IMG/VR virus record: IMGVR_UViG_3300027983_000101
Location: 1 to 27,644 of that record
Strand: one strand, 5' to 3'
Origin: a virus
DNA: 27,644 bases
The position numbers were made by a program, and so were the translations under genes. Of the stretch, positions 1 to 19,900 are shown in pieces; position 1 is the first letter of the stretch, and the number at the start of each line of letters is the position of its first letter. The notes under the pieces were generated by a model, which did no database searches, was not told the DNA's origin, and saw only the letters and a list, made by a program, of their open reading frames with translations.

Positions 1-53
1 AAGAAGCTGGTGACTGGGTAGAGGTACCCGAGGTAATCGATGAAGCTGAGTAA
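1..53 (+). CDS. C-terminal end of an unidentified upstream gene (partial)
   Basis: The frame starting at base 3 is open from the window edge to TAA at 51-53 and gives a short acidic C-terminus (EAGDWVEVPEVIDEAE). It overlaps the endolysin start by 14 bases, a tight overlap typical of co-transcribed phage genes. From its place before the lysis genes it could be the end of a tail or receptor-binding protein, but that is inferred from position only; 16 residues do not identify a family. The other two frames close earlier. Confidence 0.45.
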   Translation, partial: EAGDWVEVPEVIDEAE

Positions 54-603
54 CCCAGCCCCAGGACGACCCGTAACCTCCTCCTACGGCTGGCGAATCC
101 ACCCCATTACCAAAAAACGTGCCTTTCACAGAGGCACCGACTTCGGCGGAACCTTCGACGTCCTCGCTGCCGGAGACGGCGAAATCGTACACATCGGTTG
201 GTCCCCCAAAGGCGGAGGACACGTAGTCATTATCGAACACGAACGCGACCTCTACACCGTCTACTACCACGGCGCACACAAAACCGCCCTCCCCGTCGGC
301 CACAAAATTAAAACAAACGAACTCATTTACCGTTCAGGCTCAACCGGGGCCAGCACAGGGCCCCACCTCCACTTTGAAGTAAGAACTAGCAAAAAATGGG
401 GCACCGACACATCCCCAGAACCATATTTTAAAGAGCAAGAACCTACAAAACTTGTTGAAGACGGCAAACTTGGTAAAAACACGTGGTCTGCTGTTCAAAC
501 ACGTTTGCGAAAAGCAGGTTACTACAATGGTCGTATCGACGGACTACCTGGTAGACTAACTGTGTCCGGACTACAGAAATATATTAACGAAGGAAAATTC
601 TAA
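40..603 (+). CDS. Endolysin: M23-type (LytM-like) metallopeptidase with C-terminal peptidoglycan-binding domain
   Basis: This 187-aa protein should cut peptide bonds in host peptidoglycan at the end of infection. The N-terminal part is an M23 zinc peptidase: the HxxxD zinc motif is at H30/D34 (FHRGTDF), the HxH motif at H109/H111 (GPHLHFEV), and an extra His lies in YYHGAH (about 77). Residues about 137-187 look like a small peptidoglycan-binding domain (LGKNTWSAVQTRLRKAGYYN). There is no signal peptide, so release should need the holin downstream. The ATG at 40 follows a GAGGT ribosome-binding site and overlaps the previous gene. By hand count, GC is about 56% over 61-420 and about 41% over 421-600, with the break at the domain border. 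The peptidase call is firm; the substrate bond is unknown. Confidence 0.9.
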   Translation: MKLSNPAPGRPVTSSYGWRIHPITKKRAFHRGTDFGGTFDVLAAGDGEIVHIGWSPKGGGHVVIIEHERDLYTVYYHGAHKTALPVGHKIKTNELIYRSGSTGASTGPHLHFEVRTSKKWGTDTSPEPYFKEQEPTKLVEDGKLGKNTWSAVQTRLRKAGYYNGRIDGLPGRLTVSGLQKYINEGKF

Positions 604-1749: not shown

Positions 1750-2058
1750 ATGTCTATGCTGTCATCTGATAATAGTCCGGGTACGTTTAGTAGTGATGAA
1801 AACCCGAAACCGCCTAACCAGGTTGTTGATGATTTTCATCAGAATAGTGATTTGAATGCTCGTGCGGAGGCGCAACATCATACATTGGGTCCGGGCCCGA
1901 CACAGGCCGCGCCGGGTAATCACACTCATGATGGCGGTGATTCGTCGCTGATTCTTGAGGGGCAAACGATTAGTGGTTCTCGGGCGTCTGATGCTTGGCG
2001 TATTTCGGTTAATGCTATTCTTGTTCGTCTTGGAGCTGTCGATAATTCGACCCCATAA
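1750..2058 (+). CDS. Small protein of unknown function before terminase; possible small-terminase position
   Basis: This 102-aa, soluble, low-hydrophobicity protein has an ATG at 1750 behind a strong TAGGAGG that overlaps the preceding stop. A His/Gly/Pro-rich middle (QHHTLGPGPTQAAPG then NHTHDGGDSS) resembles linker segments seen in phage head or tail-fibre proteins. The C-terminal 35 residues (SRASDAWRISVNAILVRLGA) look helical. Its stop overlaps the terminase ATG (TAATG), so the two are co-translated. The position is where a small terminase subunit often lies, but I see no helix-turn-helix, so that role is only a suggestion. Confidence 0.75.
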   Translation: MSMLSSDNSPGTFSSDENPKPPNQVVDDFHQNSDLNARAEAQHHTLGPGPTQAAPGNHTHDGGDSSLILEGQTISGSRASDAWRISVNAILVRLGAVDNSTP

Positions 2059-3641
2059 TGCCAGCGAAAGTTAGACAACCTACTTCGGCAGAGCTGTTGC
2101 AGCTCGCCATTAGTGAGCTGGGCCAAAGTATTCATAAACCGAATATTTTGAATTATGGGGAGAAACCTTACCCTGAGCAGCTTCGGTTTCATAAATCAAC
2201 TAAACGTGGACGTTTTATTTCTGGAGGTAACCGTGGGGGTAAATCGGATGCTGAGGTGGTGGAATCTATTTACTGGGCTACAGACACTCATCCATACCTT
2301 AAACGACCTGGTTCATGGGGTTCTGGCCCGATTCAACTGAGATTTGTTGTTGTTGACGTAGCTAAAGGTATTGAGCAGATTATTTTGCCGAAGATGAAAC
2401 GGTGGATTCCTCGCTCATATTTGAAAGATGGCGACTGGTCTAAAAGTTGGGATGCCACTAACTACATTTTGACGTTTGAGAATGGTTCGACAATTGATTT
2501 TGTGACGTGGGGTATGGACATGATGAAACTGGGTGGTGTGCCCCGTCACGGCATTTTCTTTGATGAGGAGCCTCCACAAAACATTTTTAACGAGTCGATG
2601 ATGCGTTTGATTGACTACAACGGTTTTTGGGTGATTGCGGCCACACCAATTAAGGGTATGGGGTGGACGTTTGATTTGCTGTGGGAACCGGCTTTGGAGG
2701 GTAAAGCGGAGGAGATTGATACGTTCTCCCTGTCGGCTGAGCAGAACCCGTACATTCAGGCTGATGATGATGACATGAATTTTTACATGATGGGCATGAA
2801 CAAAGAGGAGAGGGATATCCGTGAAAAGGGTAGTTTTGTGGCTCGTAGTGGTCTTGTGTTTCCTGACTTTGCTCAAAACATTAACCAGTATTTAGTGGAT
2901 TTTGGTCCTGGGGATGTGCCAAAGGATTGGGCTGTGTATGCGTCTGTTGACCACGGTTTAAATAACCCGACTGCGTGGTTGTGGCATGCTGTGTCTCCGA
3001 CAGGAGATATTGTGACGTTTGCGGAACATTACCAATCAAACATGATTGTGTCGGAGCACGCACAGCTTGTGAAGCAGCGGGAGCTTAGTTGGGGGCGTAA
3101 ACCTGAGTCTGTAGAGCGTATGGGCGACCCTGCGATGCGTCAACGCAACGGGGTGACCGGCACATCGATTATTCAAGAATATGCGCTCCACGGGGTGTAC
3201 GTGAACGTTGAGGGGATACCCCACGATGTTATGGTTGGTATTGAGAAGATGCAGGCGTATTTGCGTCGCCGTAACGATACCCGTTGGGGACCCGACAGGC
3301 CCAAATGGGTTATTTCTCGTAACTGTGCCAATTTTATTCGGGAAATGAAGAAGCTGCGCTGGTCGTCGTACAGTTCGGACAAGATGGCGTATGAGATGAA
3401 CAAGCAGGAAGTTGTGCACAAAAAAGATGACCACGCTTTTGATTCTGCCCGCTATTTTGCTACGACACGGCCTGATTTGAAGCCTGTTGCTGATGTTAAA
3501 AGTGACGCAGAGCCGCCAACTACGCTAAGCTATGAAGAATTGCTTTTGAAGATGCGAGAAGACCCTAACGTCGAGTTCGCAGAAGACAGAGCGTACGACG
3601 ACGGACCTACCGTCATTGCAGGATATGGAGACTACTACTAA
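2058..3641 (+). CDS. terL: Terminase large subunit (packaging ATPase and nuclease)
   Basis: This 527-aa protein is the motor that pumps DNA into the procapsid at the portal and cuts the concatemer. The ATPase domain shows a Walker A-like P-loop at residues 55-63 (SGGNRGGKS) and a Walker B with catalytic acid at about 166-171 (IFFDEE). The C-terminal RNase H-like nuclease starts near YASVDHGLNNPTA (first Asp) and ends with the DDHAFDSARY region (last Asp). Length is usual for phage large terminases. The start overlaps the previous stop and has no clear ribosome-binding site, which suggests coupled translation. The downstream gene also overlaps by one base. No obvious small subunit lies nearby. 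Confidence 0.95.
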   Translation: MPAKVRQPTSAELLQLAISELGQSIHKPNILNYGEKPYPEQLRFHKSTKRGRFISGGNRGGKSDAEVVESIYWATDTHPYLKRPGSWGSGPIQLRFVVVDVAKGIEQIILPKMKRWIPRSYLKDGDWSKSWDATNYILTFENGSTIDFVTWGMDMMKLGGVPRHGIFFDEEPPQNIFNESMMRLIDYNGFWVIAATPIKGMGWTFDLLWEPALEGKAEEIDTFSLSAEQNPYIQADDDDMNFYMMGMNKEERDIREKGSFVARSGLVFPDFAQNINQYLVDFGPGDVPKDWAVYASVDHGLNNPTAWLWHAVSPTGDIVTFAEHYQSNMIVSEHAQLVKQRELSWGRKPESVERMGDPAMRQRNGVTGTSIIQEYALHGVYVNVEGIPHDVMVGIEKMQAYLRRRNDTRWGPDRPKWVISRNCANFIREMKKLRWSSYSSDKMAYEMNKQEVVHKKDDHAFDSARYFATTRPDLKPVADVKSDAEPPTTLSYEELLLKMREDPNVEFAEDRAYDDGPTVIAGYGDYY

Positions 3642-4168
3642 TGACTAGATTTTTCCTAACCGACGCTCCCACCATGTCGCCGGGAGTGTGCTGGATAACT
3701 AAAACTGGTGTTGGGCCTTTCATTGACACCGGCGTTGACCTTAGTTTGCATGTTGTTGACCGTGGGCGGATGTACATTTCTGTAGACGCCCTGCGCGAAA
3801 TGGCGCAAATTGCGGGACTATTCGACGAAAAAGAACCTGTTTCTGTCGAACTCAAGAAAAAAGAATGGTACGACAAAGGCTACCAAGACGCTTCAAAGGA
3901 GATAAATAAAGATGCTATTGACAATTTTATTCAGCACGTTAGTCGTAACGCTGTTGGGGCTGCTGGTGTTGCAGTACTGGGCTCACCACAAAACAATGTC
4001 ACAGCTGCTGGAGCAGCAGTTTCTGAACCTGCGGGAATCGATGCAGGAAAGCCGGAAGACAGTGCAGGTGTTAGCAGACCTGAACGAAAAGGCTCAAGCA
4101 CTAATAGCGTCAAGCGACCCGCTAGCGTTTCAACAAATTCAAGCGATGAATCAAACTTTAGATTATAG
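3641..4168 (+). CDS. Unknown protein whose C-terminal half overlaps the next gene in another frame
   Basis: The 175-aa product begins at an ATG overlapping the terminase stop (TAATG), with GGAG 10 bases upstream. Residues 1-95 look like a genuine folded domain (GPFIDTGVDL, RGRMYISVDALREMAQ, GYQDASKE). From about residue 92 it is a disordered Ala/Ser/Gly/Pro-rich stretch lying over the first 257 bases of the gene starting at 3912, in a different frame. Because its frame has no earlier stop, a real N-terminus forces this long overlap. The tail may be functional disorder or tolerated read-out. The GPFIDTG...YIS pattern recalls small zinc-binding proteins next to some phage terminases, but the usual Cys pairs are absent here. 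Function unknown. Confidence 0.65.
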   Translation: MTRFFLTDAPTMSPGVCWITKTGVGPFIDTGVDLSLHVVDRGRMYISVDALREMAQIAGLFDEKEPVSVELKKKEWYDKGYQDASKEINKDAIDNFIQHVSRNAVGAAGVAVLGSPQNNVTAAGAAVSEPAGIDAGKPEDSAGVSRPERKGSSTNSVKRPASVSTNSSDESNFRL

Positions 4169-4325
4169 TGGTTACCAGGACTACGACCCGTCAGATGAGG
4201 CTGAGTCTGACAGAATCGCTAAACGAAACCCTAACCTTTCAGCAGGAGACGACGTAGATGGCCAAGAAGCCCGCCAATTATTCGCAGAACTCACCGGGGC
4301 TGACCCAGAATTCTACGGTAATTAA
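3912..4325 (+). CDS. Membrane-anchored coiled-coil protein between terminase and portal
   Basis: The 137-aa product has one N-terminal membrane helix (residues 2-24, Leu/Val/Thr-rich), then a heptad-like helix (LLEQQFLNLRESMQESRKT, LADLNEKAQALIAS), and an acidic C-terminus (YQDYDPSDEAESDRIAKR). The ATG has AAAGGAG about 10 bases upstream. Its 5' end overlaps the preceding gene by 257 bases and its 3' end overlaps the portal gene by 68 bases, each in a different frame. A membrane-tethered helical protein here could tie packaging or procapsid assembly to the membrane, but that is speculation. The sequence is much more protein-like than the competing frame over the shared bases. Confidence 0.75.
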   Translation: MLLTILFSTLVVTLLGLLVLQYWAHHKTMSQLLEQQFLNLRESMQESRKTVQVLADLNEKAQALIASSDPLAFQQIQAMNQTLDYSGYQDYDPSDEAESDRIAKRNPNLSAGDDVDGQEARQLFAELTGADPEFYGN

Positions 4326-6393
4326 ACTCCCCGAAGACGGGTTAAACATTGAGCGGTTCCGTGAAAGCGCGGAGGCCAAAAAAATGGTTGCTTGGGTTCA
4401 GTCTGAGTGGTCTAAAGCTAAAACTGCTCGCACCCAGAAACAGTTGCAATGGTTTAACAACATGGCAATGTTTTATGGTCACCACTGGGTTGAGCAGACT
4501 CGCGGAGATTTTCCAGACGGGTATAAAGACAAACTGTTTACGCCGCGTAAGCCTTACTACCACCAGCGTAAAACCATTAACCGTATCCGGTCTTATGTGC
4601 GTTCGGAAATGTCGAAGATGCTGTCATCTTTCCCCAGTGTGCAAGCAATCCCTTCTTCTAGTGAAGACGAAGACCAGAGGGCCGCGTTTGCCGCTGAGCA
4701 GGCGTGGACGTCTATTAGTGAGGCTAAGAAGCTTCGTCAGCACATGTCGCGTGCGATGTGGTGGACGGTAGTTACTGGTAACGGTTTTTTAAAAACGCAT
4801 TGGGACACTACGTGTATGGACAAAGTGTCGGGTGAAATGGGTGACATTAAGTATGGCCACGTCACCCCGTTTCACCTTTTTGTTCCCGACATCCGCGAAC
4901 AAGACATTGAGGACCAGCCGTTTGTTATTAACGCTTATACGAAAACGGTGGAGTGGGCTGAATACTATTTCGCTAAAGAACTAAACGGAATTAGGTTAGC
5001 TCCTAGCACGTCCAGTGCCAACCAAATATTAGATGAGGCTTACCTAAACTTGGGTCACAGCAAAGCTCCCGACAGTGTGATTGTGTACGAAACGTGGGTA
5101 AAGCCTGGTGCAACCAAACTGATGCCAAACGGCGGGGTTATCATCAGCATTGATGACCTCCTCATCAGCATGTACAAAGACGGGTTCCCTTACGACCACC
5201 AAATGTACCCGTTCACCAAGTTTGAGCACATCCCCACAGCCACCTTCTACGCTGACAGCACCATTGTGGACCTGTCGCAGTTGCAGAAAGAATACAACGG
5301 TCTCCGTTCAGAAATTGCTGAAGCGGGTCGGCGTATGGCTAAGCCACAGTTGATTGCCCCTATGGGTTCTATAGTTCCATCTAAGTTGACGAACGAGCCC
5401 GGTCTGGTGATTCAGTACAAGCCGGGTATGGCACCACCACAACCTTTGCCTTTGTCGCCTTTGCCCCAGTATTATTTGGACCAGCAGGACCGTGTGTTGA
5501 ATGACTGGATTGATATTTCTGGTGAGCGGGAAGTGTCGAGGGGTAGTGCCCCCCCTGGTGTGACTTCTGGTACAGCTATTTCGTATTTGCAAGAAGCATC
5601 TAACCAGTATTTGACTCCACAATTCCAAAGCATTGAGGCTGGTATTGAGAAGATTGCTATACAAACTATTGAGTTGTTTGTACAGTATGTGGACATTCCT
5701 CGTAAGATTCGCACAATTGGCGCTGATGGTGCTTTCGACACAATGCTGTTGAAAGGTGCGGATGTGGCGTCAGGTACTGATATTCGTGTTGAGTCTGGTT
5801 CTAGTTTTGCTAAATCTAAGGCCGCTCAGGAAGCTCGTGTGATGGACATGTTTGCTGTCGGCATTATTGACCAGCAGGCTGCCGCACGCATGTTGGAGCT
5901 TGGTGGGGTTCAGAAAATCATGGATACCCTCAATGTGGCTGAGCGTAAAGCGCAACGCGAAAACATTAAAATGAAAATGCTTACTGTTGAAGATGTTGAA
6001 ATGTATCGTATGCAGGCTATGGAAGAAATTATGGCGAGTCTTCCTCCGGAGGCAATGCAAGACCCCGCAATTATGGAGCAGATTCAAAACATGCCAGCCC
6101 CAGCCGTAATTTCTGTCGATGATTTTGATATTCACGAAGTTCATGTGGAAACTCACAACAAGTTCCGTATGTCTCAAGAGTACGAAATTTTGGCGGATGA
6201 GATTAAAGCCCAGTTTGCTGAGCACGTTGCAATGCATAAACAAATTTTGCAGGAACGGGCAATGCAACAAATGATGATGGGTATGCCCCCACAAGCCGAA
6301 GGACAGGCTGGCCCTGAACAAGGTCCTGGTGCTATGATGGCACCTAACGGGGCTGTACCTGATATGGCTCCTGAACAACCTCAAGGAGTATAA
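4258..6393 (+). CDS. Portal protein (head-tail connector)
   Basis: This 711-aa protein forms the dodecameric ring through which DNA enters and leaves the capsid. Evidence is its size, its place between terminase and scaffold/capsid genes, and portal-like segments: an N-terminal helical region (AKTARTQKQLQWFNNMAMFY), a central REVSRGSAPPGVTSGTAIS stretch before long helices, and a stem/crown-like region DIRVESGSSFAKSKAAQEAR. The last 45 residues are rich in Met, Pro, Gly and Gln, probably a flexible tail inside the head. ATG 4258 has AGGAGA 9 bases upstream and lies inside the end of the previous gene. The large size fits podovirus-type portals. Confidence 0.9.
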   Translation: MAKKPANYSQNSPGLTQNSTVIKLPEDGLNIERFRESAEAKKMVAWVQSEWSKAKTARTQKQLQWFNNMAMFYGHHWVEQTRGDFPDGYKDKLFTPRKPYYHQRKTINRIRSYVRSEMSKMLSSFPSVQAIPSSSEDEDQRAAFAAEQAWTSISEAKKLRQHMSRAMWWTVVTGNGFLKTHWDTTCMDKVSGEMGDIKYGHVTPFHLFVPDIREQDIEDQPFVINAYTKTVEWAEYYFAKELNGIRLAPSTSSANQILDEAYLNLGHSKAPDSVIVYETWVKPGATKLMPNGGVIISIDDLLISMYKDGFPYDHQMYPFTKFEHIPTATFYADSTIVDLSQLQKEYNGLRSEIAEAGRRMAKPQLIAPMGSIVPSKLTNEPGLVIQYKPGMAPPQPLPLSPLPQYYLDQQDRVLNDWIDISGEREVSRGSAPPGVTSGTAISYLQEASNQYLTPQFQSIEAGIEKIAIQTIELFVQYVDIPRKIRTIGADGAFDTMLLKGADVASGTDIRVESGSSFAKSKAAQEARVMDMFAVGIIDQQAAARMLELGGVQKIMDTLNVAERKAQRENIKMKMLTVEDVEMYRMQAMEEIMASLPPEAMQDPAIMEQIQNMPAPAVISVDDFDIHEVHVETHNKFRMSQEYEILADEIKAQFAEHVAMHKQILQERAMQQMMMGMPPQAEGQAGPEQGPGAMMAPNGAVPDMAPEQPQGV

Positions 6394-12401: not shown

Positions 12402-13160
12402 GGTGCCACTAATAACTTGGGTGCCAATATTTTTGGTACACCTTACACTACTGGTATTCCGGCTCCCGCCGGCAAACCACCTACTCAGGGCTCCCGTAAA
12501 TTGGGCTCCCGTAAATTGGGAGCTATCCAACCTCAAGAAGCACCAACAGTAACACAACCTTCCATTTCTCGCGGGCCAATTGAATTCCGCGACGCAGCCT
12601 ACAACTCCCAAATCGCCTCAATCCAACGCGCCCTACAAGATTTTGAGACCGGCGCACAAACCCGCGGCGAACGCTACGGCCAAGACTTCAGCACCGGGCT
12701 GGGCCGTATGGGTTACCGCCCAGCTACGGGTTTCCAGGCAATGCCTAACATTCTTGAACAAATGAACCAGCCACAGGCAATGTCACGTATGGGTGCTGGT
12801 GATGGTGCTGAAATGGGTGGGGCCCCGACAGTATCTGTCCCCCCCATCGCAGGCGCTTTTGACATTGAGGGCCAGTTTGACCCGTACAGTTCCGCAGCTC
12901 GTGGGACTCGTGGTTTGCGTGATGAGTTCGCTGGGCGCGGTACTTTGCGTTCTAGTGATTTTGCTAAAACTTTTGGTGAGTTTCAGAATCAGCTTAACCA
13001 GCAGCTTTCTGCTATGGAGACGTCTCGTGGCCGGTTTGGTCAGGACCTTGCTACTGAGGTTGCTCAGCAGCGTACGCAGTCTCAGGAGCGTCAGCAGTCT
13101 GCTCAGCGTGATGCAATGATGAGGGCGGCTATTGCGGCTGCTGGTGGGGCAGGTTTTTAA
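12342..13160 (+). CDS. Virion protein with N-terminal internal repeats (putative internal/ejection protein)
   Basis: This 272-aa protein is Gly/Ala/Gln/Arg-rich. Residues 1-60 carry two duplications: NNLGAGIYGK / NNLGANIFGT and GSRKL / GSRKL. Then comes a helical, Gln/Arg-rich body (SQIASIQRALQDFETGAQTR, FGEFQNQLNQQLSAMETSRG) and a C-terminus QRDAMMRAAIAAAGG that resembles the ends of the three preceding small proteins. Composition and position between nozzle and a 1755-aa protein suit internal virion proteins ejected with DNA. No enzyme motif is seen. Bases about 12,540-12,700 use more C-ending codons than their surroundings. It overlaps the next gene by one base. Confidence 0.7.
   Translation: MVSVTNNLGAGIYGKFKYSPGATNNLGANIFGTPYTTGIPAPAGKPPTQGSRKLGSRKLGAIQPQEAPTVTQPSISRGPIEFRDAAYNSQIASIQRALQDFETGAQTRGERYGQDFSTGLGRMGYRPATGFQAMPNILEQMNQPQAMSRMGAGDGAEMGGAPTVSVPPIAGAFDIEGQFDPYSSAARGTRGLRDEFAGRGTLRSSDFAKTFGEFQNQLNQQLSAMETSRGRFGQDLATEVAQQRTQSQERQQSAQRDAMMRAAIAAAGGAGF
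12354..12425 (+). repeat. In-frame 18-base direct repeat (two copies)
   Basis: ACTAATAACTTGGGTGCC occurs at 12354-12371 and again at 12408-12425, 54 bases (18 codons) apart. Similarity continues for 12 more bases with four mismatches. It encodes TNNLGA twice and reflects a duplication within the gene. Confidence 0.9.
12489..12518 (+). repeat. Perfect 15-base tandem repeat (two copies)
   Basis: GGCTCCCGTAAATTG is present twice without a gap and adds GSRKL GSRKL to the protein. The second copy with the following GGGAGC can form a six-pair hairpin (GCTCCC/GGGAGC), which would favour replication slippage. Confidence 0.9.
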
Positions 13161-14329
13161 TGGGTAAAGATGTAAAAGTGGGTAATACCCGAATTTTGGG
13201 TGGCGGTACAAGGCCCATGGACGCTTCTCCCCCCCCTATTGAGGAGCAATGGAGGGATATTTTAGGGGAACCGCCGCCGCCGCGACCCCCCGTTGGTGGT
13301 AGAAGGTTTGCTTTGCAGGGAGGCACATATTTAGGGGGTTTTGGCCCTCGCTTATTGCCAGAAGTTGTGCCGCCAGAGTTAAGTGTTGCCCAAAAACTTG
13401 CTCAGGCAGCAGTTTTTCAGGCTTCTGGTAGGGCTGACAATGACCGTGTTTATGCTAATCGCGCACGGCAAGCAGAGGCCATGTCTGGTGGCGAAGCCAT
13501 GTCTGGTGGCGAAGCCGTGTCTGGTGGTGTCGGGGGAGGGGCCCCTGCGGGACCCAATTATGGGCCTTACAGGGAAGCTCTTATAGGTCAAGCGGGTGAG
13601 CTTAACGCACGTATTCAGGCAATGTATAACCAGTTAGCTGACCAAGCTGGTGCTAACGTGGACCGCATTTCAGGTATTTACGGTGGCGCTAATGAGGGCA
13701 TTGGTAATGTTTACGACAGTGCCACTGGCAATGTGGCTGACGCTTTTGGTTCTGCGCAGCAACAGGCCGCAGACCAAATGGCCCGCCTCGGCATTGAGGC
13801 CTCCGCCCCACAAGTTATTAATCCTATGGCTTTGGCGCAGGCACAAGCAGTGTCGGGTCTTGAGCAGGGCCGTGCTAGTGGTCAGGCAGCTAATGAGCGT
13901 TTTGGTTCTGCGGCTTCTGGTTTTGGTTCTCAGATGGCTCAGGTTGCTCAACAGCAGGGCACTGAGATGAATTCAGCTATTTTGGGTGCTTTGCAGCAAC
14001 GTTTGAATGATTCTATTCTTATGGAGGAGCAGGGCCGCATGGCTGGTTCTGGGGGCGGTGGGGGTAGTGCCCGGGATGTTTTGACTGCTTACCAGCAGGC
14101 TCAGTTAGCGGCGGGTGCTGAGGGTCGGGGTATTGATTTTGTTCAGTGGGAACGCGAGCAGGGTAACCGCGAACGACAAGACGCTCTTGACCTTACTTTT
14201 AGGTTAATGGAAACCGGGGAGCTATCATTCACTGAGGCCCAGGCTCAAGCAAATGCTGTAATTAGTGGGCAGGCACCCGCAACCCCCGCACAGTCTTCAG
14301 GTAACTGGTTTACTAATTTATTTGGCTAG
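13160..14329 (+). CDS. Gly/Ala/Gln-rich virion protein (putative internal/ejection protein)
   Basis: The 389-aa product starts at an ATG overlapping the previous stop. The N-terminus (to about residue 60) is Pro/Gly-rich (PPPPRPPVGG), followed by an AMSGGE tandem repeat at about 107-123. Then comes a long Ala/Gln/Gly-rich helical stretch (ELNARIQAMYNQLADQAGAN, NVADAFGSAQQQAADQMARL, FGSQMAQVAQQQGTEMNSA), a poly-Gly/Ser linker (GSGGGGGS) and a C-terminal helical part ending NWFTNLFG. It lies between another such protein and the 1755-aa protein, where podoviruses encode ejection proteins. No lysozyme or transglycosylase motif is visible. Function is inferred from composition and place. Confidence 0.7.
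   Translation: MGKDVKVGNTRILGGGTRPMDASPPPIEEQWRDILGEPPPPRPPVGGRRFALQGGTYLGGFGPRLLPEVVPPELSVAQKLAQAAVFQASGRADNDRVYANRARQAEAMSGGEAMSGGEAVSGGVGGGAPAGPNYGPYREALIGQAGELNARIQAMYNQLADQAGANVDRISGIYGGANEGIGNVYDSATGNVADAFGSAQQQAADQMARLGIEASAPQVINPMALAQAQAVSGLEQGRASGQAANERFGSAASGFGSQMAQVAQQQGTEMNSAILGALQQRLNDSILMEEQGRMAGSGGGGGSARDVLTAYQQAQLAAGAEGRGIDFVQWEREQGNRERQDALDLTFRLMETGELSFTEAQAQANAVISGQAPATPAQSSGNWFTNLFG
13478..13528 (+). repeat. In-frame 18-base tandem repeat, nearly three copies
   Basis: GCCATGTCTGGTGGCGAA at 13478-13495 is repeated exactly at 13496-13513, followed by a diverged 15-base copy to 13528 (GCCGTGTCTGGTGGT). It encodes AMSGGE, AMSGGE, AVSGG. Contiguity and frame preservation point to slippage expansion of a flexible linker. 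Confidence 0.92.
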
Positions 14330-19606: not shown

Positions 19607-19900
19607 GTGGATAATCAACAAGCTAACCAGTTTTTAATGGACTATGGACCACTTATTTGGTTCATTTTTCTTACTATCGTATCCATTGCCGCCTTGGTTA
19701 AGATGTGGCCGTTTATTTCTAGTGTTGTTAAAACTGTTGAAATTATTACTGAGTTGCCTGAACGATTTCAACACATCGACAAAAAACTTGACACGCTTGA
19801 AATGCGTTTGATTAATGTTGAGCAGGAAGTTAAAACTAACGGCGGGGCTAGCCTGAAGGACGCTATCAAAAGAGTTGAAGACCGTTTAGATACTCTCTGA
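19607..19900 (+). CDS. Membrane-anchored coiled-coil protein (DUF2746-like)
   Basis: The 97-aa product starts at GTG one base after the previous stop. It has one N-terminal membrane helix (about 13-35, LIWFIFLTIVSIAALVKMWP) and a long coiled coil (FQHIDKKLDTLEMRLINVEQ, EVKTNGGASLKDAIKRVEDR). The ending TNGGxSLxDAIxRxE is the pattern I associate with DUF2746 proteins of actinobacterial phages, often near lysis genes. It could be a lysis accessory or a virion-associated membrane protein. It is the last rightward gene and is followed by a hairpin where the two blocks converge. Confidence 0.72.
   Translation: MDNQQANQFLMDYGPLIWFIFLTIVSIAALVKMWPFISSVVKTVEIITELPERFQHIDKKLDTLEMRLINVEQEVKTNGGASLKDAIKRVEDRLDTL

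Follow-up and report, generated by a model that had tools for sequence, protein, structure and literature searches.

A pair of genes overlapping in two frames between terminase and portal in P22-portal-like phages, with evidence for selection on both products

The viral DNA analysed here (hereafter the window, 27,644 nucleotides, IMG/VR record IMGVR_UViG_3300027983_000101) carries between its terminase and portal genes two genes, A and B, with about 250 nt in common that are read in different frames. Comparison with related phage sequences makes it very probable that these are separately started genes, that both proteins are under selection and that the arrangement has an old origin. In large dsDNA phages a long overlap of genes on one strand is easily mistaken for an annotation error, and no description of this gene pair was found in the open-access literature that was searched.

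Layout and distribution of the gene pair

The terminase-portal interval of the window is organized as follows.

2058..3641, + strand: terminase large subunit gene (PHROGs terminase large subunit, E 1.7e-8), upstream neighbour of A and coupled to it by TAATG
3641..4168, + strand: gene A, 175 aa, stop codon TAG; degenerate zinc-ribbon-like N domain, two helices and a disordered acidic tail, as predicted from relatives and AlphaFold
3895..3901, + strand: AAAGGAG, putative ribosome-binding site of gene B, located inside gene A, ten bases before the ATG of B
3912..4168, + strand: dual-coding region of A and B, 257 nt, with B in the +1 frame relative to A
4121..4168, + strand: C-terminal tip of A (...SSDESNFRL) plus stop, conserved, with B-silent sites strongly constrained
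3912..4325, + strand: gene B, 137 aa; predicted N-terminal transmembrane helix continued by a long helix; contains the motifs SDPLAFQ and DPSDEAE
4258..4325, + strand: second overlap, 68 nt in which the last codons of B coincide with the first of the portal gene
4258..6393, + strand: portal gene, P22-like (PF16510, E 2.8e-15)

The boundaries that the first-pass annotation had given for A (3641-4168) and B (3912-4325) proved exact, as did the 257 shared bases and the lack of an earlier stop in A, and the TAATG coupling, the separate AAAGGAG of B and the 68-base overlap of B with the portal gene were all found in the window as described there. The terminase end and the ATG of A at 3641 overlap within TAATG, the ATG of B at 3912 lies inside A, and B ends inside the portal gene. 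Since B is read in the +1 frame of A, the first codon position of A is the third codon position of B. In the second overlap (4258-4325) the third positions of B changed 3.32 times per site among 42 close relatives, compared with 5.41 in the B-only region, and the portal gene starts at the same place in all 42.

Viral contigs were searched with A (40 loci) and with B (60 loci), and in order to avoid bias a separate search was performed with the terminase alone, which gave 80 terminase-anchored loci. The pair was found automatically in 75 of these 80. Four of the five remaining loci are contig ends (L034, L124, L139 and L140), and in the fifth, L129, the same overlap was present when the frames were read directly. 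Pair counts, like the shuffles described below, came from custom scripts with simple start-codon rules; the automatic choice of the A frame was wrong in four loci, and L042, L110 and L126 were shown by coordinates or translations to have the expected frame. Wherever the interval from terminase to portal was complete, the terminase-anchored relatives all carried the pair, with A and B in the same frames relative to each other, down to a terminase identity of ~36%, and 25 to 109 codons of A lay over B (an overlap of roughly 75-330 nt). Among the close relatives, both frames were open through the overlap in all 42 distinct sequences and A stopped at the identical codon; one of them, L039, has a stop near the usual start of A, with the tail frame intact.

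Among isolates, the pair was also present in Microbacterium phage Shocker, Arthrobacter phages Jasmine and Casserole, and Cellulosimicrobium phage DS1. The lineage that carries it consists of P22-portal-like phages, and its known isolates infect actinobacteria. Jasmine itself is a podovirus (PMC5513430). No such pair was found in Pelagibacter phage HTVC033P or in ctKR88 (~23% terminase identity).

The first-pass annotation had proposed overprinting, either as a new disordered tail created over an existing gene or as a stop lost from A, and had named relatives with A ending ahead of B as what would refute it. Such relatives were sought and none was found among the complete terminase-anchored intervals, the shortest overlaps being 25 codons (L113) and 30 codons (Shocker). 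A recent lost stop or new tail was not supported either. The reality of both frames and the selection on them were upheld (see below). Phages that diverged deeply, with terminases ~36-49% identical to that of the window, have this overlap in common, so it must be old. The comparison shows an overlap long since fixed in the P22-portal-like lineage, and not one produced by the recent loss of a stop.

The evidence on which frame is the older points both ways. The stop of A is mobile (25-109 codons into B) and the core of B is steadier, so that the tail of A is the more variable partner, which fits overprinting of B by the A tail. Codon fit and the narrower phylogenetic spread of B lean weakly towards the A frame being older; both are confounded, and codon-usage dating was not relied on because the two frames share their bases. 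A separate observation was made in Clostridia prophages (L171-L222, terminase identity ~28-31%), where 22 loci encode a cysteine-rich zinc-ribbon-like protein of 62-99 aa just before the portal gene. This protein has no long tail and is not accompanied by B; its similarity to the N domain of A is only suggestive of a possible tailless relative.

Selection on both reading frames

One important question is whether the A frame over B could be open fortuitously, or as a side effect of the codons of B, the tail of A being meaningless. The tail is indeed variable and of low complexity, and most of it evolves fast. Its KRPASV stretch seems conserved because the SDPLxF motif of B forces it, and this conservation was discarded as evidence. 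However, when codons were shuffled with the B protein preserved, the A frame was open for a mean of 69.9 codons in 54 divergent loci, compared with 29.7 expected; 39 of the 54 loci were individually significant (p<0.05; Fisher p ~1e-40). As controls for the same null, 11 of 399 control windows passed and the third frame passed in 0/54 loci. For the window alone, shuffled with its own codon usage, the null gave a mean open run of 28.9 codons, and the actual run of A within B is 84 codons (p = 0.007). The 25-30 codon overlaps of L113 and Shocker were individually non-significant in this test.

The comparison of both frames over the overlap that had been suggested with the first-pass annotation was carried out by parsimony on a tree of the 42 close relatives, using one reconstruction and expectations taken from portal rates, and it showed constraint on A. 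Changes silent in B numbered 305 in the overlap, compared with 501 expected. Those creating stops in A were the most depleted (4 seen, 31.9 expected), followed by those radical in A (69 against 151), with conservative ones less affected (227 against 313). No shift away from stops or radical changes was observed in the portal control. The four stops were inferred on reconstructed branches, and none of the 42 sequences has a stop inside the overlap. The B-only control was also somewhat below expectation (120 seen, 148 expected), so the overall drop in silent change is only moderate; the observed/expected ratio was 0.61 in the overlap and 0.81 in the B-only control (p = 0.005).

The composition of the A tail departs from that imposed by B. 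Its acidic fraction was 0.182, compared with 0.106 expected from the B protein, with an excess in 52 of 54 loci, and the tail is less hydrophobic than B would force it to be and nearly cysteine-free. At the third positions of B an abrupt switch takes place past the stop of A, from G 0.42/T 0.12 to G 0.20/T 0.30. The G-rich, T-poor third positions could partly reflect selection at the RNA level and not on the A protein. From the same analysis, the absence of stop-making T-ending codons was set aside as circular, and the base switch at the A stop was retained. The most constrained part of A is its last codons (SSDESNFRL, 4121..4168), with 36 B-silent changes seen and 78 expected. The Tyr codon of B that provides the T of the A stop is TAT in 42/42 close relatives; TAC is the slightly commoner Tyr codon in the other genes of the window that were sampled. 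Taken against the shuffles, the avoidance of stops, the bias towards conservative changes, the acidic tail and the base switch, a merely chance-open A frame is highly improbable.

A further explanation is that the A frame is kept open for reasons of translation or mRNA, with through-running ribosomes keeping the B start accessible or protecting the message, and not for the tail protein. The position of the B start and ribosome-binding site inside A in the relatives examined agrees with it. Nevertheless, a short overlap suffices for coupling and ~70 codons would be unneeded, and neither the conservative bias of changes in A nor a tail acidic beyond expectation in 52/54 loci is accounted for, which makes this explanation rather unlikely.

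The same strand, the +1 frames and the long overlap would also suit a programmed frameshift fusion of A and B, of the kind known from tail assembly chaperones. Against this, B has its own ATG and Shine-Dalgarno-like site, such a match being present at 42 of 54 divergent B starts against a 15% background, and an in-frame stop lies within 30 codons upstream of the B start in 50 of 54 loci. A frameshift fusion is thus hardly to be expected, and separately started genes with two selected products remain the preferred reading. In overprinted virus genes in general, two selected frames also share bases and one product is disordered (reviewed in PMC8227390); the difference is that here a terminal overlap persists across a broad range of dsDNA phages. 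Such strong evidence for two-frame selection over many diverged genomes offers rich natural data on the birth and upkeep of overlapping genes.

Predicted proteins and candidate roles

Searches of A and B against Pfam, PHROGs, NCBIfam and PDB profiles gave no useful match. Foldseek found no PDB fold for A and nothing for B, and a viral library returned only the A family itself. The A family has the zinc-ribbon-like pattern PGxCxxCG...D.G...G.xYxCxxC..E.A, with the CxxC...CxxC cysteines present in 39 of 68 family representatives and absent from the window protein. At 3641-3910 the putative zinc-binding cysteines typical of the family have been lost in the clade of the window, with the domain retained. 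AlphaFold predicted with confidence a domain ending near residue 60, then helices at 67-107 and a low-confidence tail, which is probably disordered, as the first-pass annotation had it. Hence, A is predicted to combine a zinc-ribbon-like domain with a stalk of helices and a tail that is acidic and disordered. For B, one continuous helix (2-67) followed by short helices was predicted; the alignments for structure prediction were built without three rows from isolate records. Across relatives B carries the motifs SKDPLxFQ and SDExE.R. The C-terminal side of its membrane helix is the more positive in 48 of 68 representatives and the less positive in 5, which predicts an N-out/C-in orientation; the charge score is neutral for the B of the window itself. 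B is accordingly predicted to be a membrane-anchored long-helix protein with its C-terminal part in the cytoplasm.

An overlapping pair in which one member joins a membrane helix at its N terminus to a long helix recalls the Rz/Rz1-like spanins of lysis. The predicted orientation of B is, however, the reverse of the i-spanin N-in/C-out. By eye, the alignment of A showed no signal or lipobox, and its start is a soluble zinc-ribbon-like domain, which does not fit a lipoprotein partner. Moreover, the known hosts of the relatives are actinobacteria and an endolysin-like gene is located elsewhere (window 40-603). A spanin pair is for these reasons very doubtful.

With the ribosome-binding site and start of B inside A, both proteins would be made from the same message, probably in a fixed ratio, and their constant pairing between terminase and portal leads us to infer joint action. 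The head-block position, the invariable pairing and the membrane anchor beside the portal suggest, by analogy, a role in assembly or packaging. During packaging or the assembly of the portal/procapsid, B might anchor an assembly factor, possibly A, at the inner membrane face. In T4 the portal starts at the membrane with gp40, which supports membrane-bound portal assembly (PMC9958956); the likeness to gp40 lies in the proposed role only. Such a membrane-tethered role is a weak guess. Tentative in the same way is the broader proposal that the pair, dual-coding throughout this lineage of short-tailed phages since before its deepest sampled split, might form a new membrane-linked head-assembly module of two co-produced partners, one zinc-ribbon-like and acidic-tailed and the other a membrane-anchored helix.

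Small virion or ejected proteins may be encoded beside the portal gene, as are gp6.7 and gp7.3 of T7. A podoviral relative, the place directly before the portal, the small size and the membrane helix of B would suit such a function for A and B, for which no sequence or fold match was found. This possibility is nearly as likely as the assembly role; it bears on function alone and would leave dual coding untouched.

Isolate records and other features of the window

Within the head-gene block this pair forms a core part that is still uncharacterised, and cultured phages, Jasmine and Shocker among them, allow direct tests. B was missing or truncated in the isolate records that were examined, one partner having been dropped by gene callers. 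In Jasmine and its relatives (Jasminevirus, gp13/gp12) a long-tailed disordered A homologue, which like that of the window has no CxxC, and B in the same relative frame occupy the terminase-portal position; unlike in the window, the overlap is ~108 codons, an extra gene precedes A and B is unannotated. This omission extends to the records of Jasmine, Casserole, Adat and Brad (L042, L043, L234, L235) and of DS1 (L044). DS1 has an A homologue (QSJ04813) that carries CxxC...CxxC and is overlapped by B over ~83 codons. The homologous pair of Shocker (gp18/gp19, L041) has identical order and frame, whereas its A is shorter, the overlap is 95 nt (30 codons) and gp19 is annotated from an internal start that misses the membrane helix. 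In ctEqG8 (L045) an overlapping A, absent from the annotation, is accompanied by a shorter B with no obvious membrane helix.

Two other features of the window were recorded. At 19607-19900, directly after a 1755-aa gene, another small protein, with a GTG start, has a membrane helix and, after it, a charged segment that is probably helical, and the protein encoded at 13160-14329 contains tandem GGEAMSGGEAMSGGEAVSGG repeats.
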